From a virus: a stretch of DNA of 21,045 nucleotides. How positions within the stretch are numbered: position 1 is the stretch's first letter; each line of letters starts with the position of its first letter. Both the position numbers and the translations under genes were made by a program. The notes under the pieces are model-generated. The model was not told the DNA's origin and made no database searches. It saw nothing but the letters and a program-made list of their open reading frames with translations. Below, one piece after another: positions 5,596 to 20,177 of the stretch. Location of the stretch: the IMG/VR virus record IMGVR_UViG_3300049893_000973, positions 1-21,045 of that record. One strand, 5' to 3'.

Positions 5596-5632
5596 ATTAG
5601 ATTATAAAAATTATATAGTTATAAATTAAACT

Positions 5633-5668
5633 TTATTTAAAAATGTTTAAAACATCACTATATAGTTA
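5633..5668 (-). promoter_or_regulatory. 36-bp bipartite element, copy A (candidate late promoter/operator)
   Basis: On the plus strand this reads TTATTTAAAAATGTTTAAA, then five variable bases (acatc), then ACTATATAGTTA. The same 19 + 12 bases with a five-base gap recur at 11720-11755 and 19845-19880. The 12-base part holds the perfect palindrome ACTATATAGT. The element lies in front of the fibre gene at 5595 and includes the stop codon of the gene before it. On the minus strand the order is palindrome first, then a TTTAAATA-type box about 40 bases before the ATG. Confidence 0.75.
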
Positions 5669-6043
5669 AAATACCTCCCATGTCTCTTCAATTCTAAGCT
5701 CATTAGTTCCATCAAATTGTATAGCCGGCATTCCAGTTCTTGACCAAATACTTCCAGTAATTCCAGTTCCCGATGCTATCATACCGAATTCTTTTAAAGA
5801 TAAACCACTTAATTCTACACTATTCCAATCTCCAGTCCAAGAAACTTTATACGGTATTGTTATATCAGTAGAAGTGACTGCTTGTCTATCATATGTATTT
5901 AATAGAGTTGTCATACTAGATAAACTAGTTCCACTTCCGCTTCCTATTACAAAGTAAGATGGTATTGTTTGAGCTATAGTTCCTGCTCCACTATTACCAA
6001 TAAATCTAGCTATTGTTTTTTTTGCATAATCTGTTACTACCAT
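5666..6043 (-). CDS. Small tail protein after the hub, 125 aa
   Basis: Unrecognised at family level. It begins MVVTDYAKKTIARFIG, then a Gly/Ser-rich strand region, and ends IEETWEVF. The form, a short N-terminal helix that could dock to the tail followed by beta strands, and the place just downstream of the hub, suggest a tail-tip or fibre-linking protein. GGAGGATA lies right before the ATG and overlaps the hub gene's TGA region, giving coupled translation. The stop is part of the 36-bp element copy A. Confidence 0.55.
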   Translation of the reverse strand: MVVTDYAKKTIARFIGNSGAGTIAQTIPSYFVIGSGSGTSLSSMTTLLNTYDRQAVTSTDITIPYKVSWTGDWNSVELSGLSLKEFGMIASGTGITGSIWSRTGMPAIQFDGTNELRIEETWEVF

Positions 6044-6055
6044 ATTATCCTCCTT

Positions 6056-8299
6056 TCAGAAATATCCCCCTGAATATATAAGTGTCCAAGCACCAAACGC
6101 TCCTCCTAATCTAGATGTTCCTAAAATTCCTTGTAATACATTTCCCATTACAAAAGCTAGTCCTGATTCTACAGACACTGTGTATGTATCTAGTAATCCA
6201 AATACTTGAGAGTCTAATATTAGAGACGTTCCCGCAATATTTCTAGTGTAAACTTCAACACCACTTTGTCTTATTCCAACACTTCCTGTAGTATTTTGAA
6301 ATCTAGTTATAATATCAGAATCATCTATATCAGCTGCTTGTAGCTTTTTAACGTCAAGTGTTAACTGTTTTATTATATCAGTCACATCATTCATCTTAGT
6401 ATTAAGTTTAACGTTCATTACATTTTCAGTTAAGTTATTTTCTTTGTTAAATTGATAACTAGCTTCTATTATATCATAAGTTTCGTTATCAATACTTTCA
6501 TAAGGCATATCTACTACTACTGTTTGACCAGGAGTTACGTTATATATTCCTTGAAGATTTAAATTGCCTTCTTTTTCAGGGACAGAATATTTAGCTAATT
6601 GCTGTTGCATTACGCTAACTGCTGTATTAGGGTCTTTAATATTTTTATCTACTATAACTTTTACTCTAGTTCCGTATTGAGCTTTACTGACTTCATCATC
6701 TGCTACTTTAACAATAGGAAGTAATCTTTTATAATTAACTATAACTTGATTTCCAGATGAAGGAATAAATGCTCCTAGACTAGTTCCTGATATAAATATA
6801 ATTTGTTTATCGTCATAGTTAACTAAATATTTTAATCCTGAAGGAGTAGAATAAGACATTTGATAAACTCCGCCCGGTTGTATAGTTGCTCCAGAAACAG
6901 TTATTTCTGTATTATGAGGTTTATATAATAATGTAAATATAGAACCACCTAGGGGAGAGCCAGCTGTAAATGTTTCTTTATATCCATCTAAATATCTATC
7001 TCCATATACCCATATTTGATTAAATATATTATCTCTTTTCTCTGTAAAGTCTGAAGTAGAAACAGCATTATTATCAAAAGTATATCCAGAACTTACACTT
7101 GAATTAGGTTCAAAGTGAAAGTCTTTATTATTATCTATATAAAATATATATTCATTTCCGTCAGCTAGTCCTGCTAGTTCTTTTATAGCATCGTATACAG
7201 GAACGTGTTTAAATGTTATTCTAGGTAATATGGTTCCGGGATGTTGTATTCCGCTCCAACTAATGTTTTGAGTATATTTAGAAATAATATCTTGTACTAT
7301 GCTTCCGACTTCCCAGTTAGTATATACTTCAGGTTCTACAGTTCTATCTTGTAATCTAGCAATATAATCTCTGCCACTTAGATGAATTTTTTCGTCTAAA
7401 GGTTGTCCAACATATGAAATATCTTCTAAGATTCCTCTAAATAATAATTGAGAACCATTATTATATAATTCAGTTCCAGAACCTTTATTAGCAATAGCTG
7501 CTACTTCATTTGCTGTTAAAGCTCTTCCTTCGTATATTCTTAAATCATCTATTTGTCCATACCAGTATTCATTATTAGCATCTGAACGCTTTCCTATTTG
7601 TGCATCGGCTGGTGCTACTCCTGCTGTTAAGACTTGATTACTAGAACCTATTAATACTCCATCAAAATATCCATAAATATTAGAACCATTATACACTCCA
7701 GCATAGTGATGCCAATTAGTATCTAAAACATTACCTCTCATTACAGAACCACCAGCACCTACACTATCATAAGCAAATTGGAATGAACCAAGTCCTTGTC
7801 CTAACTTCCATAAGTCGTTACCTGCATTACGAGTTCCTATTATGACCATAGTTGCACCTGCAACTCCTCCAGAAGGCGATTTAGCCCATGCTGTAAATGA
7901 CACAGGGTAACCTGGACCATAACTTCCAATTCCGCTAATTGCAATATAAGCAGGACTTCCTAGAGTTATAGCACTTCCTATCTTTCCAGCTGATGTAAAT
8001 TGAACACCGCTAATACAACTTCCTATTCTATTAGAAATAGTATCGTATATAAAAGTTCCGCTAGAATTAAATGTCCATTGATATGTAGGATTTCCACTAG
8101 GCTGAATCATTCTATTATCAGCGTAAACTGTAACTTCATCGTTAAGAGTAAAGTAATCTTTATTCTTTCCAACAAAATTATCTACAGTAGCTTCAAAACT
8201 ACTAGCTGATAAGTTATCGCTTATTGTTTTAGAAACATTATAATCATATATTTCATCTTCAGGTATATCATTAAACCTGATTTCACTAAAGACTACCAT
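6056..8299 (-). CDS. Tail hub / tail-tip protein with an inserted LamG domain
   Basis: This 747-aa protein follows the tape measure gene directly. Residues 1-65 and about 276-600 read as a phage tail hub (gp27/Tal-like) fold: the strand NDEVTVYADNRM is broken off at about 70 and its natural continuation, GSQLLFRGILEDISYVG, appears at about 282; later parts include LSGRDYIARLQD, a 'VPVYDAIKELAGLAD' helix and a long Val/Thr-rich domain with QTVVVDMPY. Residues about 72-275 are a complete LamG/concanavalin-like domain (YQWTFN start, NWHHYAGVYNGS, FDGVLIGSS, IDDLRIYEGRALTANEV end). Thus a lectin-type fold has been inserted in the first hub domain. The C-terminus (about 665-747) is a separate Gly-rich beta region. 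Role: closes the tail and probably meets the host surface. Confidence 0.78.
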   Translation of the reverse strand: MVVFSEIRFNDIPEDEIYDYNVSKTISDNLSASSFEATVDNFVGKNKDYFTLNDEVTVYADNRMIQPSGNPTYQWTFNSSGTFIYDTISNRIGSCISGVQFTSAGKIGSAITLGSPAYIAISGIGSYGPGYPVSFTAWAKSPSGGVAGATMVIIGTRNAGNDLWKLGQGLGSFQFAYDSVGAGGSVMRGNVLDTNWHHYAGVYNGSNIYGYFDGVLIGSSNQVLTAGVAPADAQIGKRSDANNEYWYGQIDDLRIYEGRALTANEVAAIANKGSGTELYNNGSQLLFRGILEDISYVGQPLDEKIHLSGRDYIARLQDRTVEPEVYTNWEVGSIVQDIISKYTQNISWSGIQHPGTILPRITFKHVPVYDAIKELAGLADGNEYIFYIDNNKDFHFEPNSSVSSGYTFDNNAVSTSDFTEKRDNIFNQIWVYGDRYLDGYKETFTAGSPLGGSIFTLLYKPHNTEITVSGATIQPGGVYQMSYSTPSGLKYLVNYDDKQIIFISGTSLGAFIPSSGNQVIVNYKRLLPIVKVADDEVSKAQYGTRVKVIVDKNIKDPNTAVSVMQQQLAKYSVPEKEGNLNLQGIYNVTPGQTVVVDMPYESIDNETYDIIEASYQFNKENNLTENVMNVKLNTKMNDVTDIIKQLTLDVKKLQAADIDDSDIITRFQNTTGSVGIRQSGVEVYTRNIAGTSLILDSQVFGLLDTYTVSVESGLAFVMGNVLQGILGTSRLGGAFGAWTLIYSGGYF

Positions 8300-9727
8300 T
8301 TAATAGACTCCCTTTCTCACTAGTTCTTTTTGCAACGCTTTAGCTATATCATTTGGATTCATGCCGTAAACATTTCCTATGCTAACATTAATACCTGCTC
8401 CGCCGGGAGAATTTCCTTTAAATGCCATTATATTATCATCAGGAGAAGTTTCTATTATTTGTCCTTTTTTAGTTATTATAGCATCATTTACTCTGGTAGT
8501 ATCTCCAAAACCAAACCAAGACTTTACAGCTCTTGTAAATTGTGCTGAAGTAGAATATTTTTCATTCATTTTAGCTGCATTTAAATCATACTGAGCTTTC
8601 ATTAAAGCTTTATAATTTTCCATATCTTTCTTCCAATCTTCATCTTTTATTCTTCTTAATTCAACATAATATTTGTCCTTTAGATATGTTAACTGGTCTT
8701 GATAACTTTTATTCCAAAAATCATTTATTCTTTGTTGACTTTGAGTTGAGGACATTTCTTGAATATTTTGAAGATTAATTTTAGCATCAAATACATCTCT
8801 AGCTTTAGCGAATTCAGCATCATATACTGTTTTCATTTTTTCTAGTTCAGCTTCAGCATCTATTATTTTCTGAGATGTTCCAGCTGGTCTTTTATTTAAA
8901 GCTCTTAAGTCAGCTATTTCTTTTTCTTTTTCAGCTATTTTAACAAGAGCTTGAGCTTCTTTTTCAGACTGAGGAGTATATTCTCCTGTTAATAATCCTT
9001 GGAGTTCTTTTAGAGCCTCTGTAGTTCTTTTAGTATTATCATATAGCTCTCTGTAAGCATCAGATATAGATATTGCATTGTCTTTAGCTTTTTCTTCTAT
9101 ATCTTTCATTCTTTCAAGATGTCCACTATATACTTTATATCCAGCAGCTACAACAGCTAAAGTCCCTGCTAAAGTTGCTAGGGTAGCTCCAACAGGAGTA
9201 GCTACAAATGCTAAACTAGCAGTAGTTAAACTTCTAGTACTTGCTATTAAATTAGGCATAGAAGCTGCTAATTGACCAACTCCTGTAGCCATTTGAACAT
9301 AAGTTCCAAAAACTTGATTATTAACTCTAGCTAGATTGTTTTGAGAAATAGTTAATCCTCTAGATGCTGCAGTTAATTCTTGTTGTGCTTCTGCTAAATC
9401 TTCTGTAGTTGATGTAGAACTCTTTTGCACTTTTTGAAGATTTAATTGTGCTTTCTTTAATCTATCTTGAGCATTAGCTAATCTTTCAGTAGCATTTTCT
9501 ACTCTTATCTGCATATTTTGATAGGAGCTAAATACTCTATCTACTCTATCTACAGCATTACCTAATACTAATAAGTTTCCTGTTTGTTCTGTAAAAGCTT
9601 TGCTAGTAGATTCTGTAGTCCTTTCGACATTTTTAGAAGTCTTAGTTAAAGTATCTTCAATACCTTTTAGCGTTTTAGTAGTATCATCTACTGCTGTTAT
9701 CAGTATCTTCATTTCTTCTTCTGCCAT
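8300..9727 (-). CDS. Tail tape measure protein
   Basis: This is a 475-aa tape measure. It is helical almost throughout: long coiled-coil stretches at about 15-140 (NAQDRLKKAQLNLQKVQ) and 225-400, with a hydrophobic Ala/Thr-rich block at about 165-205 that could cross a membrane during genome entry. The C-terminus is Gly-rich (GNSPGGAGINVSIGNVYGM). It follows the chaperone genes and precedes the hub, the standard siphovirus order. At about 0.15 nm per residue of helix, 475 residues would give a tail of roughly 70 nm, a short siphovirus tail (estimate only). Its ATG overlaps the stop of the frameshift extension by one base (TAATG); AGAGG lies upstream. Confidence 0.85.
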   Translation of the reverse strand: MAEEEMKILITAVDDTTKTLKGIEDTLTKTSKNVERTTESTSKAFTEQTGNLLVLGNAVDRVDRVFSSYQNMQIRVENATERLANAQDRLKKAQLNLQKVQKSSTSTTEDLAEAQQELTAASRGLTISQNNLARVNNQVFGTYVQMATGVGQLAASMPNLIASTRSLTTASLAFVATPVGATLATLAGTLAVVAAGYKVYSGHLERMKDIEEKAKDNAISISDAYRELYDNTKRTTEALKELQGLLTGEYTPQSEKEAQALVKIAEKEKEIADLRALNKRPAGTSQKIIDAEAELEKMKTVYDAEFAKARDVFDAKINLQNIQEMSSTQSQQRINDFWNKSYQDQLTYLKDKYYVELRRIKDEDWKKDMENYKALMKAQYDLNAAKMNEKYSTSAQFTRAVKSWFGFGDTTRVNDAIITKKGQIIETSPDDNIMAFKGNSPGGAGINVSIGNVYGMNPNDIAKALQKELVRKGVY

Positions 9728-10148
9728 TATCTTTTCCTCTTATTTTGCTGTTTCATTTTTCGAATTTGTTTATTGATATAATGGATTATATATTGTTCTT
9801 CAAATAATGTTAATGCTTTAGTATCTTTTAAAGACCAATTAAAGTATTCACATATTTTTAGATTATTTTCTAAATTCTTTAATCTAGGGTCTTCTGAGAC
9901 AAAAAATCATTTAAACCATTTAGGTTATTAAATGTATTTACTAGAGACAATCTTTCTTTGATTGTTAGATTTTTATATTCATCTTCTGTTAATCCTGTGC
10001 TTATTGTTATCTGCTTTTTTAATGTTTCATTTGAGCGAACACTAATATCTTCTATTTTAGATGTTTCGTTTAAAATAGAGTCTAATTCGATAGCTAACAA
10101 TTCACGCATAGTAACATTTTTTGAATTAAGTTTTACTATTGTTTCCAT
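9727..10148 (-). CDS. Tail assembly chaperone, -1 frameshift product (gpGT-like)
   Basis: In tailed phages the chaperone gene before the tape measure is usually read in two forms by frameshift. Here the first 81 codons of the 89-aa gene run to GAT TTT TTG, an exact X XXY YYZ slippery heptamer (9900-9906). A -1 slip there opens 57 further codons with no stop until a TAA at 9727-9729 that abuts the tape measure ATG. The extension begins VSEDPRLKNLENN, contains an EYFNWSLKD segment, and ends in a strongly basic tail (KMKQQNKRKR). The fused product would be about 140 aa. Without the shift the 150 bases between the two genes would be unexplained. The extension probably binds the tube protein, as in lambda gpGT. 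Confidence 0.82.
9879..10148 (-). CDS. Tail assembly chaperone, unshifted form (gpG-like)
   Basis: This 89-aa acidic helical protein begins METIVKLNSKNVTMREL and has an LTEDEYKNLTIKERLSL helix region. By size, helix content and place between the tail tube and tape measure genes it is the short form of the tail chaperone that coats the tape measure while the tube forms. AAGGAGGATAA precedes the ATG, a strong ribosome site. The last eight codons after the slippery site are replaced in the frameshifted form. Confidence 0.78.
   Translation of the reverse strand: METIVKLNSKNVTMRELLAIELDSILNETSKIEDISVRSNETLKKQITISTGLTEDEYKNLTIKERLSLVNTFNNLNGLNDFLSQKTLD
9900..9906 (-). other. -1 ribosomal frameshift site T TTT TTG
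   Basis: On the minus strand the bases TTTTTTG lie in frame as GAT TTT TTG. Both tRNAs can re-pair one base back on TTT TTT. The new frame stays open to the tape measure start. No strong downstream stem is obvious, which is common for this class of site. Confidence 0.8.
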
Positions 10149-10204
10149 TTATCCTCCTTTATGAGTTTGTTAAATTAAATAAAAAATAAAATAAAAATAA
10201 ATTT

Positions 10205-11209
10205 TTAATACGGATTACCGTATAGTCTAACTGCATCACTTCCTATAAAGACTGCATTTGCAGGTCTTATAGTAATAGTAGTATCATCAATACCTTCAGC
10301 TTCAGATGTAGTTCCTAAATCAGTGATATAACAACCACTAAATATAAACCAACCTACTTCAGTTGCGGATTGTCTGCATTCAAGCATTGCATTAAATGTA
10401 CTTCCGTTTTTATGGAAATCGCTTAATGTTCTAAACCACGTATTGTTAGTACTCATACCAAGTTCTAATGTATGATTTCTATTAGTTGGTATCATTGCTT
10501 GAGCAACTCTACTTCCATTAACAAAATGTCTATTCTCTACATTATTCTCTAATGAGTAAGTTATATCGTTAATTTCATTAACAACTGTTCCTGATGGAAG
10601 ATGGAATTTCAAATCACTCCAAACATATGGTCTTGATGTATCTGCATCGTTAAGTGCAAAGATATCTGTAGTCTTACTTCCTAAAGTAAATGATTGTCCT
10701 TTATAGCTTACTTCACATTCAACAACTTCTCCGTTTGATGCTGATAAGCTAAATGTATCTGCTACACAACCATTAACTATTCTAACATAATGATTTCCGT
10801 CTCCAGCATATGATTTTTTAGAATCTCTTACTGTGAATGATGGAAAGTTTGTTAGTTGAGTAGTTCCTGATGTATAAGCATATCTTCCATCTCCATTAAG
10901 TTCACTTATTACGTGAACACTAGTAGTTCCGGAAACATTTACTACGCTACCTAAAGCGAAAGCAAACATTCTAAAATCTTGAGGATGATATGTTAACGTC
11001 CCTTCATAGTCAACTGGTCCAGGTATTTGCTGGTCGTAATTTCTATTTCCAGCTCCTGTATGTCTTGTTTCAATATAATTTTCACTTTCAGTTAAATCAT
11101 GATTTGTAACAAGTCCTATCCAGTTTGCGTTTGTACCCGTTGGTGCTGCATAAGTACCTGATTCGTATTGAAACGATACTGTATTTTGGTCTCTGCTATA
11201 TATTGCCAT
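10205..11209 (-). CDS. Major tail tube protein
   Basis: This 334-aa beta-rich protein begins MAIYSRDQNTVSFQYESGTY and has alternating strands with Gly/Ser/Thr turns throughout, for example a 'VECEVSYKG' strand, then HTLELGMSTNN, and TTITIRPANAVF near the end, typical of tail tube proteins. It lies between the tail terminator gene and the chaperone. It is longer than the common 150-200 aa tube protein, so an extra domain (probably about residues 85-170, with the RYAYTSGTTQL region) may be displayed on the tail. GAAAGGAGG gives a strong ribosome site. After its stop the 10161-10204 stretch is only AT-rich, with no hairpin found. Confidence 0.78.
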   Translation of the reverse strand: MAIYSRDQNTVSFQYESGTYAAPTGTNANWIGLVTNHDLTESENYIETRHTGAGNRNYDQQIPGPVDYEGTLTYHPQDFRMFAFALGSVVNVSGTTSVHVISELNGDGRYAYTSGTTQLTNFPSFTVRDSKKSYAGDGNHYVRIVNGCVADTFSLSASNGEVVECEVSYKGQSFTLGSKTTDIFALNDADTSRPYVWSDLKFHLPSGTVVNEINDITYSLENNVENRHFVNGSRVAQAMIPTNRNHTLELGMSTNNTWFRTLSDFHKNGSTFNAMLECRQSATEVGWFIFSGCYITDLGTTSEAEGIDDTTITIRPANAVFIGSDAVRLYGNPY

Positions 11210-11225
11210 TATTTAATTCCTCCTT

Positions 11226-11663
11226 TCATTCTAATATTGTTTTATAATTAAAAGATAGTATTTTAGAGTGAATAGAGTTGTCTCCTTCACTCTCAACTAT
11301 GCTATTAACATTATTTAGTCTAAAGCCAAACATTTGGTCTTCGGAGGTTCCTCCTGTTCCAAATTGTGCTGTCCTTAGAGTATTAATAATATCTTGTGTT
11401 AAAGTCTCTGCTTGTTTTGATTCTTTCGTCCAAGCTCTTACTTCCATATCCATATTGATAAGAGACGTTTCACTTGATATTCCTAGTTTTTGAGAATTAA
11501 TATTTGTTATTTTACAAGTTATAATAGGGTATTGCACATCTCTTTTAGGATAAGATGTCATTACGAATCCTTTTGTTCTTCCTAAAGGGTCTGTTATATT
11601 ATCTCTAAGATAGTCTCTTAAAAATAAAATCATATCACTTGCAAATGTTGCTGTTTGTACCAT
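11226..11663 (-). CDS. Tail terminator / tail completion protein
   Basis: This 145-aa protein with FLRDYLRDNITDPLG near the N-terminus, then strands (YPIITCKITNI, NMDMEVRAWTKESKQAETL) and a helix (LTQDIINTLRTAQ), resembles the tail-completion/terminator family (gpU, gp17-like): an alpha/beta protein that caps the tube and meets the neck. Its place between the gp10-like gene and the tube gene matches. It opens a block behind the 36-bp element at 11720-11755, with a 20-bp tandem repeat in its leader and no clear Shine-Dalgarno site. Confidence 0.72.
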   Translation of the reverse strand: MVQTATFASDMILFLRDYLRDNITDPLGRTKGFVMTSYPKRDVQYPIITCKITNINSQKLGISSETSLINMDMEVRAWTKESKQAETLTQDIINTLRTAQFGTGGTSEDQMFGFRLNNVNSIVESEGDNSIHSKILSFNYKTILE

Positions 11664-11666
11664 GTG

Positions 11667-11706
11667 TCTCGCTTGACGAATATTAATCTCGCTTGATTAA
11701 TATATG
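11667..11706 (-). repeat. 20-bp tandem repeat in the leader of the tail terminator gene
   Basis: Two adjacent 20-base units (plus strand 11667-11686 and 11687-11706) both start TCTCGCTTGA and continue with AT-rich bases. On the sense strand TCAAGCGAGA occurs twice, exactly 20 bp apart, with the last copy four bases before the ATG. The words are richer in GC than the surrounding leader, and the 20-bp step equals about two helical turns, so an operator or an RNA-level control site is possible. Confidence 0.5.
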
Positions 11707-11719
11707 GATAAATATTAAG

Positions 11720-11755
11720 TTATTTAAAAATGTTTAAAATAAGACTATATAGTTA
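11720..11755 (-). promoter_or_regulatory. 36-bp bipartite element, copy B
   Basis: The 19- and 12-base parts are identical to the copies at 5633 and 19845; the five-base spacer is ataag. It lies between the gp10-like gene (stop at 11756-11758) and the tail terminator gene, 56 bases before that ATG. Confidence 0.75.
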
Positions 11756-12136
11756 TTATGAAATTTTAGAAAGAACGTATTTAAACTTATCTTTTATAAC
11801 GAACTTTAAACGATTTAGACTATTTCTAAAATGACTTCTAGCTTCCATCTTAGAAGTTCCAAACTCTAAGAAAGATGAATAATCAACTTCGCTATATACA
11901 TTTACATAACTAGATTTTGAAGAGTTATTTTGGTCAACATTTATAGATGCCAAGAATGCTCCAGTATCTACACTTCTAGGTTCAGACCTATTACCTTCAA
12001 TAGAATATTCTATTTCTTCTTTTAATAGAATTCCACTTTCAGCCATAGCAACATCTATTTCAGATTTTAATTGTCTAGAACTCTTATTAAGTTTATCAAT
12101 TACTTTTTTAGAGTCAACAGTAATAGACATCTTCAT
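11756..12136 (-). CDS. HK97 gp10-like head-tail joining (neck) protein
   Basis: This 126-aa protein carries the signature of the HK97-gp10/tail-component family: a helical N-terminus (DSKKVIDKLNKSSRQLKSEI), the mid-chain VDTGAFLASI, then YSSFLEFGTSKMEARSHFR, the match to the family's 'Y-x-x-FGT-s-k-m-x-A-r-p-h' block. The family joins the tail to the head connector. Its ATG follows the previous stop directly, with CGAGGA upstream. It is followed by the 36-bp element B. Confidence 0.8.
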   Translation of the reverse strand: MKMSITVDSKKVIDKLNKSSRQLKSEIDVAMAESGILLKEEIEYSIEGNRSEPRSVDTGAFLASINVDQNNSSKSSYVNVYSEVDYSSFLEFGTSKMEARSHFRNSLNRLKFVIKDKFKYVLSKIS

Positions 12137-12463
12137 TTAGTTATAGTCCTCGTTTACTTCTATCTTAAACGAATGGTCTGAAGGTATTGTCATTTTACTT
12201 CCTGTCCATTGTATTTCAAATTCTCCAAAGTATGTTCCTGATGTTCCAGTATCTGTAGTTCCAGTCCATCTGTATTCTACTTGTCCTAATGAACTTCCAG
12301 TTATAACACATTGACCGCTAGTAAAAGCTGCATATGTTGTTGATAATCCCATATTAAACCAAACACTTCCATTATTCAAATCTATTGGTGTGCCGTCTTC
12401 ATATGTTAATGTAGCTGCTAGTACAGGCAGAGTATCATTCTTTTTTATTTTAAATATTTGCAT
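12137..12463 (-). CDS. Small beta-sandwich virion protein (BppU N-domain-like)
   Basis: This 108-aa protein has the layout seen in BppU N-terminal-like/Ig-like small phage proteins: KKNDTLPVLAATLTYEDGTPIDLNN, a long strand pair, QVEYRWTGTTDT, a 'SGTYFGEFEIQW' strand and a final FKIEV strand. Such domains often dock fibres or decorate the particle. It lies between the triple-LamG gene and the gp10-like neck gene, so an anchoring role for the LamG protein at the neck is a reasonable guess. AAAGGAGGT precedes its ATG. Confidence 0.62.
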   Translation of the reverse strand: MQIFKIKKNDTLPVLAATLTYEDGTPIDLNNGSVWFNMGLSTTYAAFTSGQCVITGSSLGQVEYRWTGTTDTGTSGTYFGEFEIQWTGSKMTIPSDHSFKIEVNEDYN

Positions 12464-12464
12464 A

Positions 12465-14663
12465 TTAATTATTTACCTCCTTTATTGTTGTGTATTTAGG
12501 TTTATAACGCCAATATAATTGTATAGCTTCTTCATGTGATAATGCTTTATTGTAAAGAGAGAAATCATCTACTAATCCTGATAATGCTAAATACTGAAAA
12601 TTAGCATAACCTGGATTAGCTCCAATATATAAAACATCATCTCCACCTCCTAATGTAGTAACTCCTATTTGAGAGCCTGCTAAAACACCATTCATATAAA
12701 ATCTTACTTCCTGATTAGTTAAATCTCTAATGCAAATTCCATGATTCCACTGCCCTTGTTTTATAACAGGAGATTTACCGGTATCTCCTCCTGGACTTTT
12801 ATTAAATGTCATACTTACATAATTACTATTCCAGAATTTAATCCAAGAATTATAATCAAACATTCCTATAACATGTCCAGCATCTGAATGATATGCACTA
12901 TGATTAGCTATTTTAAACCATACGCTAGTAGACCAATCTGAATTAACAGATACTGGCAATCCTCTAGTTAAAAATAATATAGAACTTCCAAGACCTGTAA
13001 CCGCTCCACCAGAATAGCCATAAAATCCTAGACCACTTCCTATAAACCCATTAGTATATTCAGGTTTTGGAAAACCTACTATACTTCCTGGTTTATTAGA
13101 TATTTTATCTAGTATATAAGACCCATTATTAATAGTCTCAAAGTCATACCACATTACACATCCTGATATGTCACTTGGTAATAATCCTGATATATTAGTT
13201 TCTTTTGAAACTGTTAAATTATATTTAGGTTTATTTCTTTTATACAATTGATATATTTCTTCAGACGATAAATCTCTATTATAAACTGCCATTTCAGCCA
13301 TTGTACCTAAGAAACTTCTAGTTAAATCTGTAGTGTTACCAAAGTAAACATTAGTTGCTCCGTCTATAGAAGTTGTTGTTGTATTATCTAGTGCTGAACC
13401 TAGTAAACTACCATTAGTATATACTCTAATATATTTATCGTTCTTATTATAAGTAGTGGAAACATTAGACCATATATTCGGCTCTACTCCTGATAATGCT
13501 ATTGCAGAAGGATTATTAAATCCATCATATCTAGCATTCCCAAAAGATAATTTAGTACCACTATATAATCTTAATTCAGCGTGATAAACTCCTGCTGTAC
13601 CTTTAGGAGATATTAATCTTATTAAATAGTTTTCAGTAGGTTGAGGATTAATCCATAATGAATAAGTATAACTACTTCCTCCGTTAAATTTGAAAGGTAA
13701 TGTAGTACCACTCGCTAGACCACTTAAAGGAAAATTAATTCCAGAATTATATATTGCTCCAGTAAAATTAGCGCCACTCATTATTCTTATTTCTGCGCCT
13801 GATACTCTGTCATATGCTGTACTTCCAATAACATTATTGAAATCCCAATAACTTTGCACCCATGGAAAGCTTCCAGGAGATAGTAATTCTATTTGATTAT
13901 TACTACTTAATGTTACGCTACTAGAGTCTAAAGACAAGGTTTGATATTTAGGAAGATTACTTTTATAGATAGAATATATTTCATTTGATGTTAAAACACG
14001 ATTAAATACTGAAAAATCAGATATGTTATAGTCTCCGGGAGAATCAGCCATTCCTAATCTTATCGTTTGTCCTATTCTAATACTTCCAGTACTTGCAAAT
14101 ACTTTAGTAGGTGTATCTAATTTTCCATTTCTATAGTCAGATATTGAACCATTTTTCCATGTAAAAGCAACATGTTGCCAAATACCTGATGCTAGAATTG
14201 TACCTCCTACTATATTATCATAAACTGTTGATGCGCTATCCCAAAACTTATATCCTATTTGATTACTATTTACAGCTCTAGATTGATATAATATGAATCC
14301 TCTAGGTGATTCATTTCCTATGAATCCAGGAAAGCCATTTGTTTCTGCTCCTACTCCTATATTATGTCTTACCCACATAGATACAGTTAAATTTGTAGAA
14401 CTCATTCCTAATGACCCTATTCTAAAATACACGTTATCTGTAGAACTTAAACTTCTTACTCCCGAAGTATATCTTCCAGCATCCCAATACATTCCACTTA
14501 CAAAAGAACCAGTCATTCCTGTTATTCTATCATATCCATAACTTCCAGTTCCTTCATTTAAAGGAAAGTAAACTACACAACCTGATATACTTCCTGGATT
14601 AATAGGAACTACGTTAAAACTAGAATTAAGATTATAGTTATTACTGTTAGAATTAAATTGCAT
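12465..14663 (-). CDS. Triple LamG-domain virion protein
   Basis: This 732-aa protein consists of three tandem LamG/concanavalin A-like jelly-roll domains at about residues 26-241, 268-482 and 499-725. Each opens with a strand like SGCVVYFPLNEGTGSY or SGCVMWYDFETINNGSY, carries a W(Q/S/N)HV-type strand (WQHVAFTWKNGS, WSNVSTTYNKND, WNHGICIRDLTN), and closes with SxEIYxxY (or EAIQLYW) ending PKY. LamG folds bind carbohydrates or serve as rigid displays. The short Asn-rich N-terminus has no signal peptide. It sits inside the head-tail joining block, so it is probably a neck or head fibre ('whisker') that touches glycans. Start: ATG follows the previous TAA directly; GGGAG is upstream. Confidence 0.82.
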   Translation of the reverse strand: MQFNSNSNNYNLNSSFNVVPINPGSISGCVVYFPLNEGTGSYGYDRITGMTGSFVSGMYWDAGRYTSGVRSLSSTDNVYFRIGSLGMSSTNLTVSMWVRHNIGVGAETNGFPGFIGNESPRGFILYQSRAVNSNQIGYKFWDSASTVYDNIVGGTILASGIWQHVAFTWKNGSISDYRNGKLDTPTKVFASTGSIRIGQTIRLGMADSPGDYNISDFSVFNRVLTSNEIYSIYKSNLPKYQTLSLDSSSVTLSSNNQIELLSPGSFPWVQSYWDFNNVIGSTAYDRVSGAEIRIMSGANFTGAIYNSGINFPLSGLASGTTLPFKFNGGSSYTYSLWINPQPTENYLIRLISPKGTAGVYHAELRLYSGTKLSFGNARYDGFNNPSAIALSGVEPNIWSNVSTTYNKNDKYIRVYTNGSLLGSALDNTTTTSIDGATNVYFGNTTDLTRSFLGTMAEMAVYNRDLSSEEIYQLYKRNKPKYNLTVSKETNISGLLPSDISGCVMWYDFETINNGSYILDKISNKPGSIVGFPKPEYTNGFIGSGLGFYGYSGGAVTGLGSSILFLTRGLPVSVNSDWSTSVWFKIANHSAYHSDAGHVIGMFDYNSWIKFWNSNYVSMTFNKSPGGDTGKSPVIKQGQWNHGICIRDLTNQEVRFYMNGVLAGSQIGVTTLGGGDDVLYIGANPGYANFQYLALSGLVDDFSLYNKALSHEEAIQLYWRYKPKYTTIKEVNN

Positions 14664-15068
14664 TTAGAATAAACTCCCAGGCAGAGTTTGCCTTATATAC
14701 ATCTTTTGGTAAATTATTGAATTACCAATTGTATACTTTTGCACTCCATCTGGAATCATTGTATAGTATTCAGTGCCTATATTTATAACTAGACCGCTAG
14801 TATTAACTTGACAGCTTCCTGTATATAGAACTTTATCCTGAGTCTTTAACTTTCCTTGTTCCATTAATAAAGCTTCACTACTTCCCATTTTAGATTTTAT
14901 AGGAAATATTAAACCACTTACATAAGTACTTCCAGTAAGAGTTTGAACTAGAACGTCATCAAAGTCTGCTTCATTGGTAGTATAATTAATTAATTTAACA
15001 AGAACTTGATTACCATGAGGTAGTATATATCTCATACCGTCATTCAAAAAAGTAGTAGCTATTGACAT
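14664..15068 (-). CDS. Head-closure / stopper-like protein
   Basis: This 134-aa beta-rich protein begins MSIATTFLNDGMRYILPHG; KTQDKVLYTGSCQVNTSG and YTIGNSIIYQKMYIRQTLP follow. Size, strand content and place right after the adaptor gene suggest the head-closure (SPP1 gp16-like) role, which seals the packaged head before the tail docks. The call rests mainly on gene order. Its ATG overlaps the adaptor stop (TAATG). Confidence 0.55.
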   Translation of the reverse strand: MSIATTFLNDGMRYILPHGNQVLVKLINYTTNEADFDDVLVQTLTGSTYVSGLIFPIKSKMGSSEALLMEQGKLKTQDKVLYTGSCQVNTSGLVINIGTEYYTMIPDGVQKYTIGNSIIYQKMYIRQTLPGSLF

Positions 15069-15454
15069 TATCCACTAATTACTCTTCTATAACGAGTATA
15101 TCTCCCTAATTCTTTTAATCTTAATATAGCATCAGCTCTAAGCTGTTTAGCTAATTCACTTCCACCACCAGCACCTTGACTTACAGACAAGTCTCCTAAA
15201 CTAACTGTATCTATCCCACCTTGTTGACTTTCAAGAGTTAATAATACTTTAGACTGAACTAAATCTATTACTGAAGGTTGATATTTTTCAGCAATTGAGT
15301 CAGAAGAAGTATTATCATTTGTATAAGTATTCATGAAATTAATTTCCTGAATTACCATATCATTAAGAGTCGCTCCACTAAGAGTACCTATGACACTCCA
15401 GCCATACATATTTCCTATATGTGTAGCGACACTTCCGCTATTCCACACTACCAT
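15068..15454 (-). CDS. Head-tail adaptor (gp6/gp15-like connector)
   Basis: This 128-aa protein is mainly helical: an MVIQEINFMNTYT helix, then AEKYQPSVIDLVQSKVLLTL, a short strand region with VSLGDLSVSQGAGGG, and a long basic C-terminal helix (ELAKQLRADAILRLKELG). The arrangement 'helices, S-L-G-D-x-S-V, then Ala/Leu helix' is typical of adaptor proteins that ring the portal and take the tail. No Shine-Dalgarno is evident right at its ATG, which follows the preceding stop by only two bases. Confidence 0.65.
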   Translation of the reverse strand: MVVWNSGSVATHIGNMYGWSVIGTLSGATLNDMVIQEINFMNTYTNDNTSSDSIAEKYQPSVIDLVQSKVLLTLESQQGGIDTVSLGDLSVSQGAGGGSELAKQLRADAILRLKELGRYTRYRRVISG

Positions 15455-15456
15455 GT

Positions 15457-15837
15457 TTACCTATAGTAGACCGTTACTGGTCCGAATAATGTTCCTGTAC
15501 CTGATGTAAATCCGCTTCCTGCTAAGAATAAAATGTTATTTGTTACTCTAGTTAAGAATGCTTGTGGACTTCCTGTGGTGTTTGTATTATCAACTGGATA
15601 TACAAATGTATATGCTTCTTGTGCACTTAATCCTGAAGTTATGTTATTTCTTCTCCATACTTCTACATTAGTTCCACTTTCTCCAACTATTAAACTACCT
15701 GGCGATGTTATTCCTAAAACTGTTACTTTTAGAATTTCTCCATTAGCTACTGATGAAGCATATATAGGTCCAAGGTTACTTCCATTTACAGCAAATGCTG
15801 GGAATGTTATATCTTTGATTCTATTTGGTCTTACCAT
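15457..15837 (-). CDS. Small virion protein homologous to the C-terminus of its upstream neighbour
   Basis: This 126-aa protein is made of strands; no named family is recognised. It shares clear similarity with the last about 95 residues of the LamG-fusion at 15853-16881: GSLIVGESGTNV against GSIFLVESGTNI, and VDNTNTTGSPQAF against VDNTNTIGSPYAF, then a closing strand pair ending VTVYYR against IKILYS. So it is a duplicated domain, likely a head-surface or fibre-anchoring element. A strong AAGGAGG precedes the ATG. Confidence 0.65.
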   Translation of the reverse strand: MVRPNRIKDITFPAFAVNGSNLGPIYASSVANGEILKVTVLGITSPGSLIVGESGTNVEVWRRNNITSGLSAQEAYTFVYPVDNTNTTGSPQAFLTRVTNNILFLAGSGFTSGTGTLFGPVTVYYR

Positions 15838-15852
15838 ATTTTTCCTCCTTTT

Positions 15853-16881
15853 TCATGAATATAAAATTTTAATATTTTCAACATAAGCATCATTTGACAT
15901 TCCACTTCCTATAATATAAATAGGATTAGTTGATATAACTTTTGAAAATGCATACGGACTTCCTATAGTATTAGTATTATCAACCATATATTTAATTGGT
16001 ACATTATATGTTTTTGTATCTAGTCCTGAATAATATTTTGCTAGAACTATATTTGTACCTGATTCAACTAAGAAAATACTTCCAACAGAAAAATTATTTC
16101 CTGGAGTTATTTCAACACTTTCTATTTGTCCATATATTAAAGGAGTAGATAAATTTGTACTTCCAGTTATAAAATTATTTATATAACTTCCAACTCCTTC
16201 GTTTATTCTCCAATATCTAATTAAACCATTTCCTGGTATTTTATTTGAAACTAAACTTCCAACTTCAGCTATTGATAATCCTCTATTATATAATACTACA
16301 TTACTTAATGCTCCATTTAAAGCTGTTCCACCTGCTGATGCTAATGTTGCATCAGTATCAGTTGCTAGTAAAGAACCACCAACTGCTGAATCTACATTAG
16401 TTCCAAATCCAGTTAAAGAGCCATTTTTAAACGCTGAACCTGCAGTTCCATTAAATGTAAAACAATAATGGTCCCAAGTATTAGAGCCAATAGGGATTAA
16501 AGAGACTTGAAAGTCTGGTCCTATACCTGAAGTGTTTTGAGCAAAGACTAATTCTCTTGCTCCATTATTTCCATAGCACCAAGGCGTTCTACTTCCTGTT
16601 GAACCTCTACCAAATGCTCCTTCAAATCCGTTAAAGCTTCCAGTATTATGTTTCATCCAGAATCCTAATGTAATTCCATTAGGTTTGTTATCTAGTTCAA
16701 GTAAACTTCCTATTCTTGCAAATGAAGTTCCACTAAAGTTAAATGTAAAAGAATTAACGCTACCGGATTCCCAATAACCTGTCCCAAAGACAAGACTACC
16801 TAAATTGAAGTTATTGCTTCCAGTGCTGATATAAAATCGTCCTGTTTCATATTGTCTTATTTCTTCGTCTAAATATTGCAT
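15853..16881 (-). CDS. LamG-fold virion protein with duplicated C-terminal domain
   Basis: This is a 342-aa protein. Residues about 30-213 form a LamG-like domain (FARIGSLLELDNKPNG, LGFWMKHNTGSF, WDHYCFTFNGTAG, FKNGSLTGFG, NVVLYNRGLSIAEVGSL). The domain lacks the usual opening strand; a segment that looks just like it, GLIRYWRINEGVGSY, appears after the domain at about 219-233. The C-terminal part (about 250-342) is homologous to the next gene's product. An in-frame TAA upstream shows that the N-terminus is complete. AAGGA precedes the start, behind two short hairpins. Probable surface decoration or fibre protein on the capsid. Confidence 0.72.
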   Translation of the reverse strand: MQYLDEEIRQYETGRFYISTGSNNFNLGSLVFGTGYWESGSVNSFTFNFSGTSFARIGSLLELDNKPNGITLGFWMKHNTGSFNGFEGAFGRGSTGSRTPWCYGNNGARELVFAQNTSGIGPDFQVSLIPIGSNTWDHYCFTFNGTAGSAFKNGSLTGFGTNVDSAVGGSLLATDTDATLASAGGTALNGALSNVVLYNRGLSIAEVGSLVSNKIPGNGLIRYWRINEGVGSYINNFITGSTNLSTPLIYGQIESVEITPGNNFSVGSIFLVESGTNIVLAKYYSGLDTKTYNVPIKYMVDNTNTIGSPYAFSKVISTNPIYIIGSGMSNDAYVENIKILYS

Positions 16882-16898
16882 TGTTATGTTTCCTTATC

Positions 16899-16924
16899 GT
16901 CCTTTTTAGGACATGCCTTTCGGC
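16899..16924 (-). promoter_or_regulatory. Two short hairpins in the leader of the LamG-fusion gene
   Basis: On the sense strand, GCC-GAAA-GGC (a GNRA-type loop) is followed two bases later by GTCCT-AAAA-AGGAC, 17 bases before the ATG. The words are GC-rich in an AT-rich gap. There is no T run after them, so they are not a usual terminator; a leader structure for translation or mRNA processing is possible. Confidence 0.4.
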
Positions 16925-16962
16925 GTTTAATTAAAATATAAAATAAAAATAAATTATAGTTC

Positions 16963-17208
16963 TTACGTTCTACTTCCGACGTTAAACCATGTGCTTCCGT
17001 TAGCTATTAACGACATATATAATTTTCTATTAAGAGGGTCAAATGCGACTTGACTTCCTACTATAGACGTAACATATGTATCTGGGTTTCCCCATACTGT
17101 TAATATTTCTTCTGGTAAATTATAATTGTTACCGCTACCTACGTTTAAGCATCTACTAAGACCATTTACTAGCCCTGGTGTTGAACTTCCTGTTGTTGCT
17201 ACTGGCAT
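16963..17208 (-). CDS. Small structural protein after the capsid gene, 81 aa
   Basis: Unrecognised. It begins MPVATTGSSTPGLVNG and has a central LNVGSGNNYNLPEEIL and an end of VAFDPLNRKLYMSLIANGS followed by TWFNVGS. The end looks like a short display or beta-strand module seen in small capsid or fibre proteins. It is the first gene behind the capsid-gene terminator and has no Shine-Dalgarno in its leader. No cleavage site or membrane segment is seen. Confidence 0.55.
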   Translation of the reverse strand: MPVATTGSSTPGLVNGLSRCLNVGSGNNYNLPEEILTVWGNPDTYVTSIVGSQVAFDPLNRKLYMSLIANGSTWFNVGSRT

Positions 17209-17302
17209 TTTTTATTTGTTTGTATATAATTTATTTATGTAAAATTCACTTTGTACCACTCTAGTGGCTCCGGTGTGAAAAACCTAATAATAAAAATAAA
17301 AG

Positions 17303-17326
17303 AACTTCTTATATTATTAAGAAGTT
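17303..17326 (-). terminator. Terminator overlapping the end of the major capsid gene
   Basis: A perfect 9-bp stem (AACTTCTTA / TAAGAAGTT) with a 6-base loop, followed on the minus strand by CTTTTATTTTTATTATT. The stop codon of the capsid gene is part of the stem. It probably trims or weakens transcription between capsid and later genes. Confidence 0.75.
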
Positions 17327-18177
17327 GTTATTTTTGCTACTGCTTGACTTCTAAGAATCTTGACTGCTATTCTCTGAGTGACAACTGCTGCTGACATATC
17401 GTTGTTTGGTAAATCGAACTTCTCTATCATTACAGGTCTTTTTTCAACTATAGCATAAGCTTGGTTTTTATCCCAAACATAAGCATACTTTGAATAAGTT
17501 GTAGATGGAGCTGCGTTTGTACTAAACTTGATAACATTGCATCCGTAGATTCTTCCTACGAAACCGCTTGCCATCATTTGAGTATTACCAGCTTTATCTG
17601 CTTCTACAAAAGTGTCGATATTTCTAAGGTCATTTAATACCTCAATACCTACTGCTAAAGTAGTTGGAGTAAAGTCTTGGTCCTCAAGTGCTTGCATTGC
17701 AGCAGTGATGTTTGCTATTGTTATAGCTGCACCACCGGAAACAGTAGTTGATGCTGAGTCTAGTGCGGTGATTACGAGAGCGTTCTCGTTTTCAGCCATT
17801 CTAACTCCAGCCCTTCTAATGTTCCTTTCTAAAAGATTCCACTTAGCGTCTTCTAGCATTTCTCTTGTGATTCTAATTCCAACACCATACTTTATAGGTC
17901 TAATGTTTATAGTAGTATAAGTTTGTTGGTCAGATGTTATATCTGCTCCTTCTGCAATCTCCCTTACTCTTAATGAATTAGGTGTTTCTAAGTCAACATC
18001 ATAACTTGAACCTGGCACGTTTGCTGGTCCAGCAACAAATGCTGCTTCACTTCTAGGAATAAGTACTTTATCTACTTCTTCTATAAGTGTGTCATGTATT
18101 TTCTTAACAATCAAAAGAGAACCTTCTACTCCAGTACCAGTGTTCAATAATTCCTTGATATATTTATATTCTGCCAT
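17317..18177 (-). CDS. Major capsid protein (HK97 fold)
   Basis: This 286-aa protein matches HK97-fold major capsid proteins by context and sequence: an N-terminal helix (KYIKELLNTGTGVEGSLLIV), an extended strand section (SYDVDLETPNSLRVREIAEG), the spine-helix region with ITREMLEDAKWNLLERNIRR then MAENENALVITALDS, an A-domain-like segment (LAVGIEVLNDLRNIDTFVEA) and a late strand pair (YAIVEKRPVMIEKFD). It follows the protease-scaffold and decoration genes as in most tailed phages. Its start is one base after the preceding TAA, and no Shine-Dalgarno lies at normal distance; GGAGG occurs only about 27 bases upstream. It ends inside a terminator stem. Confidence 0.88.
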   Translation of the reverse strand: MAEYKYIKELLNTGTGVEGSLLIVKKIHDTLIEEVDKVLIPRSEAAFVAGPANVPGSSYDVDLETPNSLRVREIAEGADITSDQQTYTTINIRPIKYGVGIRITREMLEDAKWNLLERNIRRAGVRMAENENALVITALDSASTTVSGGAAITIANITAAMQALEDQDFTPTTLAVGIEVLNDLRNIDTFVEADKAGNTQMMASGFVGRIYGCNVIKFSTNAAPSTTYSKYAYVWDKNQAYAIVEKRPVMIEKFDLPNNDMSAAVVTQRIAVKILRSQAVAKITTS

Positions 18178-18178
18178 T

Positions 18179-18595
18179 TTAATTTAATAAAACTAATGCA
18201 AAACCTCCGCTAGCTGATGTAGTTAATGCTTTTCCTATTGACATTTCTGAACCAGTACAGAATCCGACTGAGTCGTCTCCTAATGCTGCTACAGTATATC
18301 CTCCAGAAACTGGTGCTCTTGCTTGTAACAAGAATACTCCGTTTATAGCTACAGGTACTAATGCATTACTTCCTACAGTTGCCAAAGCAACTCCAAGATA
18401 TTGTAATCCAGAAGCTCCTGCTCTAACTTTAACATCAGATGTTGCGAATGAATCAAGTCCTGAACTTACTAGTCCTGCGACACCTGAGGCGAATACTAAT
18501 TGTCCTCCGGAAATAACTGAGTCTGAATAGGCACTTATGACTTTAGGGTTACCAAAATCTGTTGCCCAAACTGCTCCATATGGATTTACTGCCAT
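18179..18595 (-). CDS. Putative head decoration protein (DUF2190-like)
   Basis: This 138-aa, Ala/Gly/Ser/Val-rich beta protein has ISGGQLVFASGVAG, YLGVALATVGSNALVPVAI and NGVFLLQARAPVSGG, a pattern like DUF2190-type and related capsid-stabilising proteins coded between protease and capsid genes. It probably sits on the capsid surface. It follows the protease-scaffold stop by six bases and has no Shine-Dalgarno, so it may rely on coupled translation. Confidence 0.65.
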   Translation of the reverse strand: MAVNPYGAVWATDFGNPKVISAYSDSVISGGQLVFASGVAGLVSSGLDSFATSDVKVRAGASGLQYLGVALATVGSNALVPVAINGVFLLQARAPVSGGYTVAALGDDSVGFCTGSEMSIGKALTTSASGGFALVLLN

Positions 18596-18601
18596 GTTTA
18601 G

Positions 18602-18982
18602 TTAAAATTTTCCGAAAGCTAATCCGCCAAGTGTAGAACTCTCAACAATATAATCATTGAATTTTTCGTCAACTTTTTCGGCAACTACTTCGACTGACTT
18701 AGTTTGTGCAACTTCTTTTACTTCTTCCTTTTTTGCAGGAATTGAATCAACTGTTGCTATTAATGCTTTTATAGATTCCATTGTCATATTAGATACATCT
18801 AATGCTGTTAATGATTTCTCTGTGCATTTTGCTTTGTAAGAAGTTATAGTTTCCTGTCTTTGAGCTTCTTTCATTTCAGAAAGTGCTTTTTCAGCAGCTT
18901 CCAATTTGGCCTTAAGCTCTACAGATTCGTCGACTTTTGTTTCAACAACACTGTCGTTCTTCTTGACTTCGTTTGCTTCCAT
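18602..18982 (-). CDS. Nested scaffold protein from an internal start
   Basis: This 126-aa product has the same frame and the same end as the protease fusion. It begins MEANEVKKNDSVVETK, exactly where the coiled-coil scaffold starts. AAAGGAGG (18989-18996) lies six bases before this ATG, as good a ribosome site as any in the window, while inside the protease frame it merely encodes ERRIK. This mirrors lambda C/Nu3, where the scaffold is made in excess from a start within the protease gene. Helical, acidic, expected inside the prohead and removed on maturation. Confidence 0.78.
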   Translation of the reverse strand: MEANEVKKNDSVVETKVDESVELKAKLEAAEKALSEMKEAQRQETITSYKAKCTEKSLTALDVSNMTMESIKALIATVDSIPAKKEEVKEVAQTKSVEVVAEKVDEKFNDYIVESSTLGGLAFGKF

Positions 18983-19597
18983 TTTAATCCTCCTTTCAAT
19001 ATTATGATTATCTTCCTCGTTAGAGGTTGAATATGATTCGTTCTTTTTACAATCAGGGCAGAACAACTTTCCCTCTTCATTCTTTTTCATTTTCATTCCA
19101 CAATCTTTACAAACTGTTTTTCCTTCTTCTTCCTTCGTATAATCTTCAATCATTTTACTTATCTCTTCTTCATTTAAATCATAATTTTCTTTCTTTACTA
19201 TTAATGTGGTCCCAGGAACTCCAGGAGTTGGTGTTAAACTTAATTCTAATGCTTGCAAATCTTTAGCAATTACTATGTCACTATCTTTAGATTCTTTAAC
19301 CATTCTACCGGCTATTGCTCCAATAGAAACTTGTAATATTCCATCTTTAGCTCTTTCAACAACTTGCGCATCGCCATAATTCTTAATCCAGCCTTCATAC
19401 ATTACTGTTTGTCCATTGTCTGTACTTTCCGCTTTTGTAACTTTTCCTACTGAACTTAATGTGTTTCCGTTATGGTCCATTAATATAGGAACGCCAGCCA
19501 TTGTAGGTGCAAATTTAGCTAATTCTTCTGCACTATAGTGAACTTTATTTCTAGAAGTACCCTCTTTAATAGCAAGACCTTTTACTGCGACTTTCAT
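18602..19597 (-). CDS. Prohead protease - zinc ribbon - scaffold fusion
   Basis: This is a 331-aa protein. Residues 1-135 are a prohead protease of the HK97/S78-like type: GVPILMDHNG with His42, LQVSIGA with Ser91, and LELSLTPTPGVPGT with Glu118 as a possible third active residue. Residues 160-186 hold a CxxC-x13-CxxC zinc ribbon (Cys 163, 166, 180, 183). From about 206 to the end is an acidic, Lys/Glu-rich coiled-coil scaffold region (VELKAKLEAAEKALSEMKEA) closing with a short conserved-looking tail (LGGLAFGKF). The protease trims scaffold and capsid protein during head maturation. The start overlaps the previous stop (ATGA) with GAGGAG upstream. The scaffold part has its own start, given separately. 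Confidence 0.82.
   Translation of the reverse strand: MKVAVKGLAIKEGTSRNKVHYSAEELAKFAPTMAGVPILMDHNGNTLSSVGKVTKAESTDNGQTVMYEGWIKNYGDAQVVERAKDGILQVSIGAIAGRMVKESKDSDIVIAKDLQALELSLTPTPGVPGTTLIVKKENYDLNEEEISKMIEDYTKEEEGKTVCKDCGMKMKKNEEGKLFCPDCKKNESYSTSNEEDNHNIERRIKMEANEVKKNDSVVETKVDESVELKAKLEAAEKALSEMKEAQRQETITSYKAKCTEKSLTALDVSNMTMESIKALIATVDSIPAKKEEVKEVAQTKSVEVVAEKVDEKFNDYIVESSTLGGLAFGKF
18989..18996 (-). promoter_or_regulatory. Internal Shine-Dalgarno AAAGGAGG for the nested scaffold
   Basis: A full match to the anti-Shine-Dalgarno pairing, six bases before an in-frame ATG, inside the protease gene. It decides the nested start. Confidence 0.8.
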
Positions 19598-19809
19598 TCT
19601 TTAATCTCCTCACCAATTATAGCTTCACACATAATATTGATTTTAACATTTTCACCGACAACAATTTCTTCAGAAACAGATTCTTTTTTAAATTTAGAAT
19701 TAGCTATAGCCCAAGCCATTTGGTCTATTTCTTTATCATCTTTTTTAGGATACTTATCACGCAATTGCTTCTTAATTGCTGCAACCATTTTTTCTAATTC
19801 TGCTGGCAT
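19594..19809 (-). CDS. Small helical protein upstream of the protease, 71 aa
   Basis: It begins MPAELEKMVAAIKKQLRDKYPKKDD and has an MAWAIANSKFKK segment. This looks like the short 'PAELEKxVxxvk ... aWAIxxas' module that in many phages lies next to, or is fused to, the prohead protease; here it is a separate gene. Function is unknown to me. Its stop overlaps the protease ATG (ATGA). It is the first gene behind the 36-bp element at 19845 and has no Shine-Dalgarno in its leader. Confidence 0.65.
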   Translation of the reverse strand: MPAELEKMVAAIKKQLRDKYPKKDDKEIDQMAWAIANSKFKKESVSEEIVVGENVKINIMCEAIIGEEIKE

Positions 19810-19844
19810 GTTATTTAAAAATATATAAATAGATAAATTAAAAG

Positions 19845-19880
19845 TTATTTAAAAATGTTTAAAGTAATACTATATAGTTA
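19845..19880 (-). promoter_or_regulatory. 36-bp bipartite element, copy C
   Basis: The 19- and 12-base parts are identical to copies A and B; the spacer here is gtaat. It begins right after the stop codon of the 98-aa gene and lies 35 bases before the start of the 71-aa gene, heading the capsid maturation block. The leader beyond it (TTTAATTTAT on the sense strand) also matches copy A. Confidence 0.75.
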
Positions 19881-20177
19881 TTAATTTACAAACCAGCTCT
19901 CAATATCATCAGGTATAATTAAATTATCTAGACTATATACTTTTTTTAATTCCTCTAATAAGAATTTACCTGAATTGAAATTGTTCCAGAACTCATTCCA
20001 TTGTGTTACGTCATAATCTATTCTAATCAATTCTACAGGTGCTCCAACATCATTTAAAATATTGAATGTTACTCGGGCAGTATATTGTCCACTGCTTAAA
20101 GGTGTTAATGTAATCTCAGGTTTACTTATTTTACCCTTAATTTTCTGCTCGATTGTTTTTGTTATATCTATCTCCAT
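19881..20177 (-). CDS. Uncharacterised 98-aa protein of the head region
   Basis: No family recognised. It begins MEIDITKTIEQKIKGKISK, has strands (PEITLTPLSSGQYTARVTFNI, RIDYDVTQW), then a helical C-terminus (FNSGKFLLEELKKVY) ending ESWFVN. Small, soluble, alpha/beta. AAGGAGG lies close before the ATG, following the stop of the large upstream gene by a few bases, so it is part of the same operon. Head-related by place only. Confidence 0.55.
   Translation of the reverse strand: MEIDITKTIEQKIKGKISKPEITLTPLSSGQYTARVTFNILNDVGAPVELIRIDYDVTQWNEFWNNFNSGKFLLEELKKVYSLDNLIIPDDIESWFVN

Follow-up and report, generated by a model that had tools for sequence, protein, structure and literature searches.

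The window, the whole stretch of 21,045 nucleotides of viral DNA analysed here, carries three copies of a two-part element (5633-5668, 11720-11755 and 19845-19880) that match exactly; 100 shuffles give a chance expectation of 0. As stated in a preliminary description of this DNA, the bases in the gap vary freely and are different in every copy (acatc, ataag and gtaat in copies 1, 2 and 3). The same description correctly assigned one shared direction to the copies, and the strand has to be corrected. The genes adjoining all copies are carried on the minus strand, so that the element is to be read as its reverse complement, TAACTATATAGT-N5-TTTAAACATTTTTAAATAA. In this reading it is composed of TAACTATATAGT-N5-TTTAAACA-TTTTTAAATAA, that is a 10-bp palindrome, 13 nt and an archaeal-type TATA box. 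Stray copies inside genes, named earlier as evidence against a regulatory role, are not found in the window: there is no fourth element with up to three mismatches allowed, and the palindrome ACTATATAGT occurs three times, every time within an element.

5633..5668, minus strand: element copy 1, putative late promoter (exact match in minus-strand reading)
5657..5666, unstranded: palindrome ACTATATAGT copy 1, proposed regulator site (fixed TATA distance in relatives)
5633..5643, minus strand: TATA box TTTTTAAATAA copy 1 (13 nt past the palindrome, like relatives)
11720..11755, minus strand: element copy 2, putative late promoter (exact match in minus-strand reading)
11744..11753, unstranded: palindrome ACTATATAGT copy 2, proposed regulator site (fixed TATA distance in relatives)
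11720..11730, minus strand: TATA box TTTTTAAATAA copy 2 (13 nt past the palindrome, like relatives)
19845..19880, minus strand: element copy 3, putative late promoter (exact match in minus-strand reading)
19869..19878, unstranded: palindrome ACTATATAGT copy 3, proposed regulator site (fixed TATA distance in relatives)
19845..19855, minus strand: TATA box TTTTTAAATAA copy 3 (13 nt past the palindrome, like relatives)

Each copy is placed between the end of one gene and the start of the next. Copies 2 and 3 start immediately past the stop codons of the genes 11756-12136 and 19881-20177, as the preliminary description has it for all three, while copy 1 instead contains the TAA stop of the upstream gene 5666-6043. 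The distances from the element to the next start codon are 37, 56 and 35 nt and lie within the 35-60 bases given before. A degenerate repeat of one half of the element also follows closely downstream of copy 3, at 19811-19829, and of copy 1, at 5610-5619.

The following genes and leader structures lie behind the elements.

5080..5595, minus strand: gene after copy 1, 171 aa, function unknown, in a small late block, without Shine-Dalgarno sequence
11226..11663, minus strand: gene after copy 2, 145 aa, tail-terminator-like, without Shine-Dalgarno sequence
11666..11703, minus strand: tandem pair of AAGCGA-loop RNA hairpins, tail-gene leader behind copy 2 (covariation, model search)
19594..19809, minus strand: gene after copy 3, 71 aa, the first ahead of protease and capsid
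18602-19597: head maturation protease, behind copy 3
17317-18177: capsid, behind copy 3

The assignment of the tail gene is based on its homologue in the relative G020, which matches the tail-terminator family phrog_123 with an E value of 0.0015. The earlier claim that each element begins a functional block holds for the protease/capsid and the tail blocks; the third block consists of small late genes whose type is unknown or fibre/lysis. In the window, a Shine-Dalgarno sequence is absent from the genes after copies 1, 2 and 3 and present in most internal genes. The same is found across the set of relatives, where a Shine-Dalgarno sequence is missing from all 34 genes whose start lies no more than 40 nt from the TATA box, compared to its presence in 989 of 2100 (47%) other genes. 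This fits leaderless or short-leader archaeal genes. The distances between TATA box and start codon fall mainly into two groups, around 27-43 nt and 72-75 nt, and the second group is largely made up of the tail gene, whose leader contains the RNA hairpins. In an alignment of 26 viruses these tandem hairpins are conserved and show strong compensatory change, the covariation being 0.90 compared to at most 0.13 for slid pairings. A model search returns about 19 sites in 840 kb, mostly ahead of the tail gene, and a comparison with Rfam gave no match. The hairpins are perhaps a translational control element. On the opposite strand to the structural genes, positions 1-2615 (plus strand) encode a short-chain dehydrogenase and two glycosyltransferases, and similar sugar-gene operons are present in relatives.

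The virus most likely infects an archaeon. The capsid protein has matches among HK97-type families; within the phage collection its matches are haloarchaeal tailed viruses only, and the protease matches Halogranum tailed virus 1 in the same collection. The relative G021 encodes a PCNA-like clamp, above the Pfam cut-off, and a family B DNA polymerase. No host was found when 152 genomes from a single methanogen phylum were searched with the capsid profile. These observations bear on the reading of the element as a promoter for a bacterial-type sigma factor of a phage, for which one could argue that AT-rich sequence mimics -10 hexamers and that internal genes use Shine-Dalgarno sequences. Against it stand the exclusively haloarchaeal matches of capsid and protease, the PCNA of a relative and the clustering of box-to-start distances at 27-43 nt in leaders without Shine-Dalgarno sequence. 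We have set this reading aside as highly improbable.

Relatives were collected in two ways: a scan with the capsid protein yielded 17 loci, and a capsid profile yielded 329 relatives, with 80 loci retained. Their intergenic regions contain, at the same gene borders, a related two-part element in which each virus has its own wording of the palindrome (ACTATATAGT, ATTATATAAT and others) ahead of a TATA-like box. The search in relatives that was proposed earlier thus finds the same design with virus-specific wording. This specificity also explains why an exact scan of viral contigs for the full element returned no match. A genome scan with the 19-bp half gave 68 scattered matches, mainly in unrelated bacteria, which are chance-like.

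The distance between palindrome and TATA box is a fixed feature of this design. In 90 sources (1.40 Mb), 100 of the 153 palindromes of the form A[CT]TATATA[AG]T fall within the 82.5 kb of upstream regions, and a TATA-like string begins exactly 13 nt past the palindrome in 46 of 79 distinct upstream cases. All other palindromes, taken for comparison, show a peak at 13 nt as well (15/210), probably because real elements missed by the simple gene caller sit there. For ACTATATAGT, a TATA box is in range for 23 of 25 occurrences from 14 records, or about 20 of 22 after removal of the overlapping records L108/G183 and L114/G187, compared to 5% of random positions; in these AT-rich genomes, TATA-like strings and AT palindromes are common. 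G009 has a spacing of 11 nt and not 13. Among relatives, palindrome and TATA box vary separately. Together with the lack of mirror symmetry between the two halves, this led us to reject a single binding site centred on the N5 gap.

In relatives with mapped gene blocks, these sites precede late genes. G021 (61 kb) has five palindromes with a TATA box at this distance; they lie ahead of the terminase-operon, portal, fibre/lysis and tail blocks, one site (32296) being without clear target, and no such site is found ahead of its replication genes. In G020 there are three sites, ahead of the portal, terminase-operon and tail blocks. The palindrome of the window itself, ACTATATAGT, is present three times within 19 kb of G187, ahead of the portal, protease and tail blocks, and twice in G183, ahead of portal and protease. 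A function other than that of a promoter, as terminator, RNA-processing site or packaging or recombination repeat at block borders, might be suspected from copies lying directly past stop codons. Such a role is hard to reconcile with the single direction, the fixed palindrome-TATA geometry, the defined distance to the start codon and the missing Shine-Dalgarno sequence, and the free N5 gap and AT-only make-up are ill-suited to a stable terminator hairpin. We consider it the least probable of the readings, and terminator and recombination repeat were set aside on grounds of geometry, direction and start-codon distance.

The geometry, the missing Shine-Dalgarno sequences and the late-block position in mapped relatives lead us to interpret the element as a late promoter with a regulator site at the position used by archaeal activators. 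Very likely it serves an archaeal tailed virus as late promoter and consists of a TATA/BRE core and an upstream site for a dimeric, probably virus-coded regulator. Host TBP and TFB would bind the core, with TTTTTAAATAA as the TATA box and TTTAAACA, which is constant between gap and TATA box and spans the BRE position, as the presumed BRE. Transcription would start around 30 nt past the first T of this box. Between the end of the palindrome and the TATA box lie 13 bp, and the centres of the two are about 22 bp apart, which corresponds to two helical turns; the N5 gap would represent the linker between two protein footprints. A regulator dimer bound to the palindrome would recruit TBP/TFB late in infection and thereby switch on the blocks for terminase, portal, capsid, tail and fibre. 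The preliminary description had suggested a late promoter or else an operator, perhaps served by a transcription factor of the virus, and the comparative evidence argues for this. Its view of the whole element as a protein-binding site is retained for the palindrome half as the proposed regulator site; the constant 19-bp half, with archaeal-type TATA box and BRE position, would be core promoter. The use of the minus strand, the TATA/BRE in the 19-bp half and the variation of the palindrome between viruses had been overlooked.

A placement upstream of BRE/TATA, found here at a fixed 13-nt spacing, is known from TFB-RF1 of Pyrococcus, an activator with a palindromic site (TCTG-N5-CAGA) just upstream of BRE/TATA and with a site also at its own operon (PMC5937170). 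TFB-RF1 is a host gene with a different palindrome and protein, and activation of the viral element is our inference. Related designs exist in archaeal viruses. According to the available part of the report on HF2, its intergenic repeats of class I and II are experimentally proven promoters with a TATA box around 26 nt before the start; like the element they are short and lie at block borders in the genome of an archaeal tailed virus, class II is located in the late morphogenesis module, and the repeat positions are conserved in relatives (PMC8707807). The sequences differ, as judged from the strings quoted there, for example CCCTTTAC, and that part of the report describes neither a palindrome at fixed distance upstream of TATA nor a regulator gene tied to the repeats (PMC8707807). 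Early motifs of SIRV2 and other archaeal viruses likewise combine virus-specific sequence around a common BRE/TATA core and mark one temporal class, which in their case are early, anti-defence genes, in contrast to the late structural genes marked by the element (PMC11065993). For HFTV1, a strictly timed transcriptome with late structural genes is reported, and the available text of that paper names no late promoter motif or activator (PMC12542753). In the open-access literature on archaeal-virus late promoters, we found no description of the element; prior description elsewhere is possible.

Clustering of the proteins of 19 longer records revealed a small protein family of 52-98 aa, here called c16, in 11 of these records. 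Its promoter carries the late palindrome of its own virus, located between TATA box and start codon: ATTATATAAT in G009, G019 and G020, CTATATAG in G018, TTTATATAAA in G022 and G025 and TATATATA in G014. The four ATTATATAAT in 23.9 kb of G009 are accounted for by three late promoters and c16. In 40 kb of G014, TATATATA is found five times, at c16 and at four late-strand sites, three of which lie directly ahead of the portal, protease and tail genes. Two of four TTTATATAAA in G022 and three of four in G025 flank c16, and the remaining ones are the G022 portal promoter and one other site per genome, with a TATA-like box 12-13 nt further on. All five scored c16 promoters contain the cognate palindrome, compared to 5 of 118 other non-late regions; the Fisher p value of 1.2e-6 is optimistic, since the link was noticed before testing. 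The clean test is limited to two further viruses, G181 and G182, retrieved by a search with c16 sub-alignments, and both have ATTATATAAT between TATA box and c16 start. G182 contains ATTATATAAT also ahead of portal and protease-block genes and at two more sites, G181 also ahead of the tail gene, there without obvious upstream TATA box. With these two included, the placement of the palindrome fits in 9 of 10 c16 genes with recognisable TATA box. The c16 promoter of G026 is without palindrome, and G008, G017 and G024 have c16 without such a promoter. The gene was not found in G021, G023, G027 and G028 and is not encoded on the 21-kb fragment of the window.

On the basis of these promoters, c16 is the best candidate for the regulator of the late palindrome, an assignment we regard as rather more probable than its opposite. 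It may also repress its own promoter, as proposed from the palindrome between TATA box and start codon; here we see the chances as about even. What we read directly from the sequences is the fixed geometry, the conservation at late borders, the short-leader genes without Shine-Dalgarno sequence and the palindrome shared with the c16 promoter, and from these we infer binding, activation, timing and autorepression. The strongest form of the proposal, to which we give slightly less than even chances, is that c16 alone could act as the switch from early to late genes in a large group of uncultured archaeal tailed viruses. It would repress its own promoter through a palindrome close to the transcription start and activate late promoters through the same palindrome placed two helical turns ahead of the TATA box, and this palindrome would change in step with the regulator from one virus to the next.

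The position of the palindrome in the c16 promoter is that of a repressor site, and repressors controlling themselves and other virus genes are common. In a late promoter with the palindrome as repressor operator, the late genes would stay off as long as the repressor is neither removed nor titrated, and it would also shut off its own gene. We regard this as unlikely: in the late promoters the palindrome lies upstream of TATA/BRE at a fixed distance, the usual position for archaeal activators (PMC5937170), and a repressor does not require a single exact upstream spacing. Slightly less likely still is a promoter whose palindrome is bound by a host protein, with no need for a virus regulator. 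The regulator is not on the fragment of the window, and host factors can activate virus promoters, as the accessible text of PMC5569661 cites for Sta1; yet related viruses have different palindromes, with the matching version in the c16 promoter.

The c16 protein has no match in Pfam, and its low-confidence AlphaFold models (pLDDT 58-65) gave no significant match in fold searches. A weak likeness, with an hhalign P of 2.7e-4 across 19 columns, links it to a second set of small proteins from these viruses. This second set matches AbrB, SpoVT, MazE and C68 chains, the AbrB chains at E 0.001-0.1; its AlphaFold models are of low confidence and fold searches with them were without significant match. 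C68 of pSSVx and AbrB-like regulators are small virus- or plasmid-coded proteins that bind beside their own promoter (PMC5569661), as is proposed for c16, which differs from this group by the weak similarity and by its link to late promoters. No RHH_1 regulators were found in 16 relatives. Other small AbrB-like proteins are also encoded among these viruses, and one AbrB/MazE-like gene, at 2569-2736 (minus strand) of L112, lies behind its own ACTATATAGT, the same palindrome as in the window. For this reason c16 is not necessarily the regulator in the clade of the window, for which the L112 protein is an alternative candidate.

The element would make late operons recognisable in uncultured archaeal viruses, and it is paired with a candidate regulator whose site can be predicted from its own promoter. 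Two synthetic promoters and a single protein of around 50-100 residues would therefore be enough to test the proposed switch in vitro.

Further motifs were seen in these genomes. Past the capsid gene, L017 (6401-6495), L018 (6901-7006) and L020 (9256-9370) seem by eye to have GCAG/CTGC and GGGG/CCCC pairing, which could form an H-type pseudoknot, and at the corresponding place the window has simple hairpins (16882-16962). A second palindrome-like string, AAAATATATTTT, is located between TATA box and start codon in L137, L145, L151, L156, G024, G027 and others. G018 (95 kb) contains a second promoter-like repeat, TATATAAT and TATAAATAYATTTAWA separated by an NNN-like spacer, at 1869, 7798, 64119, 66478, 73109, 79120 and 89252. 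It is distinct from the CTATATAG late element and perhaps represents an early or middle class.
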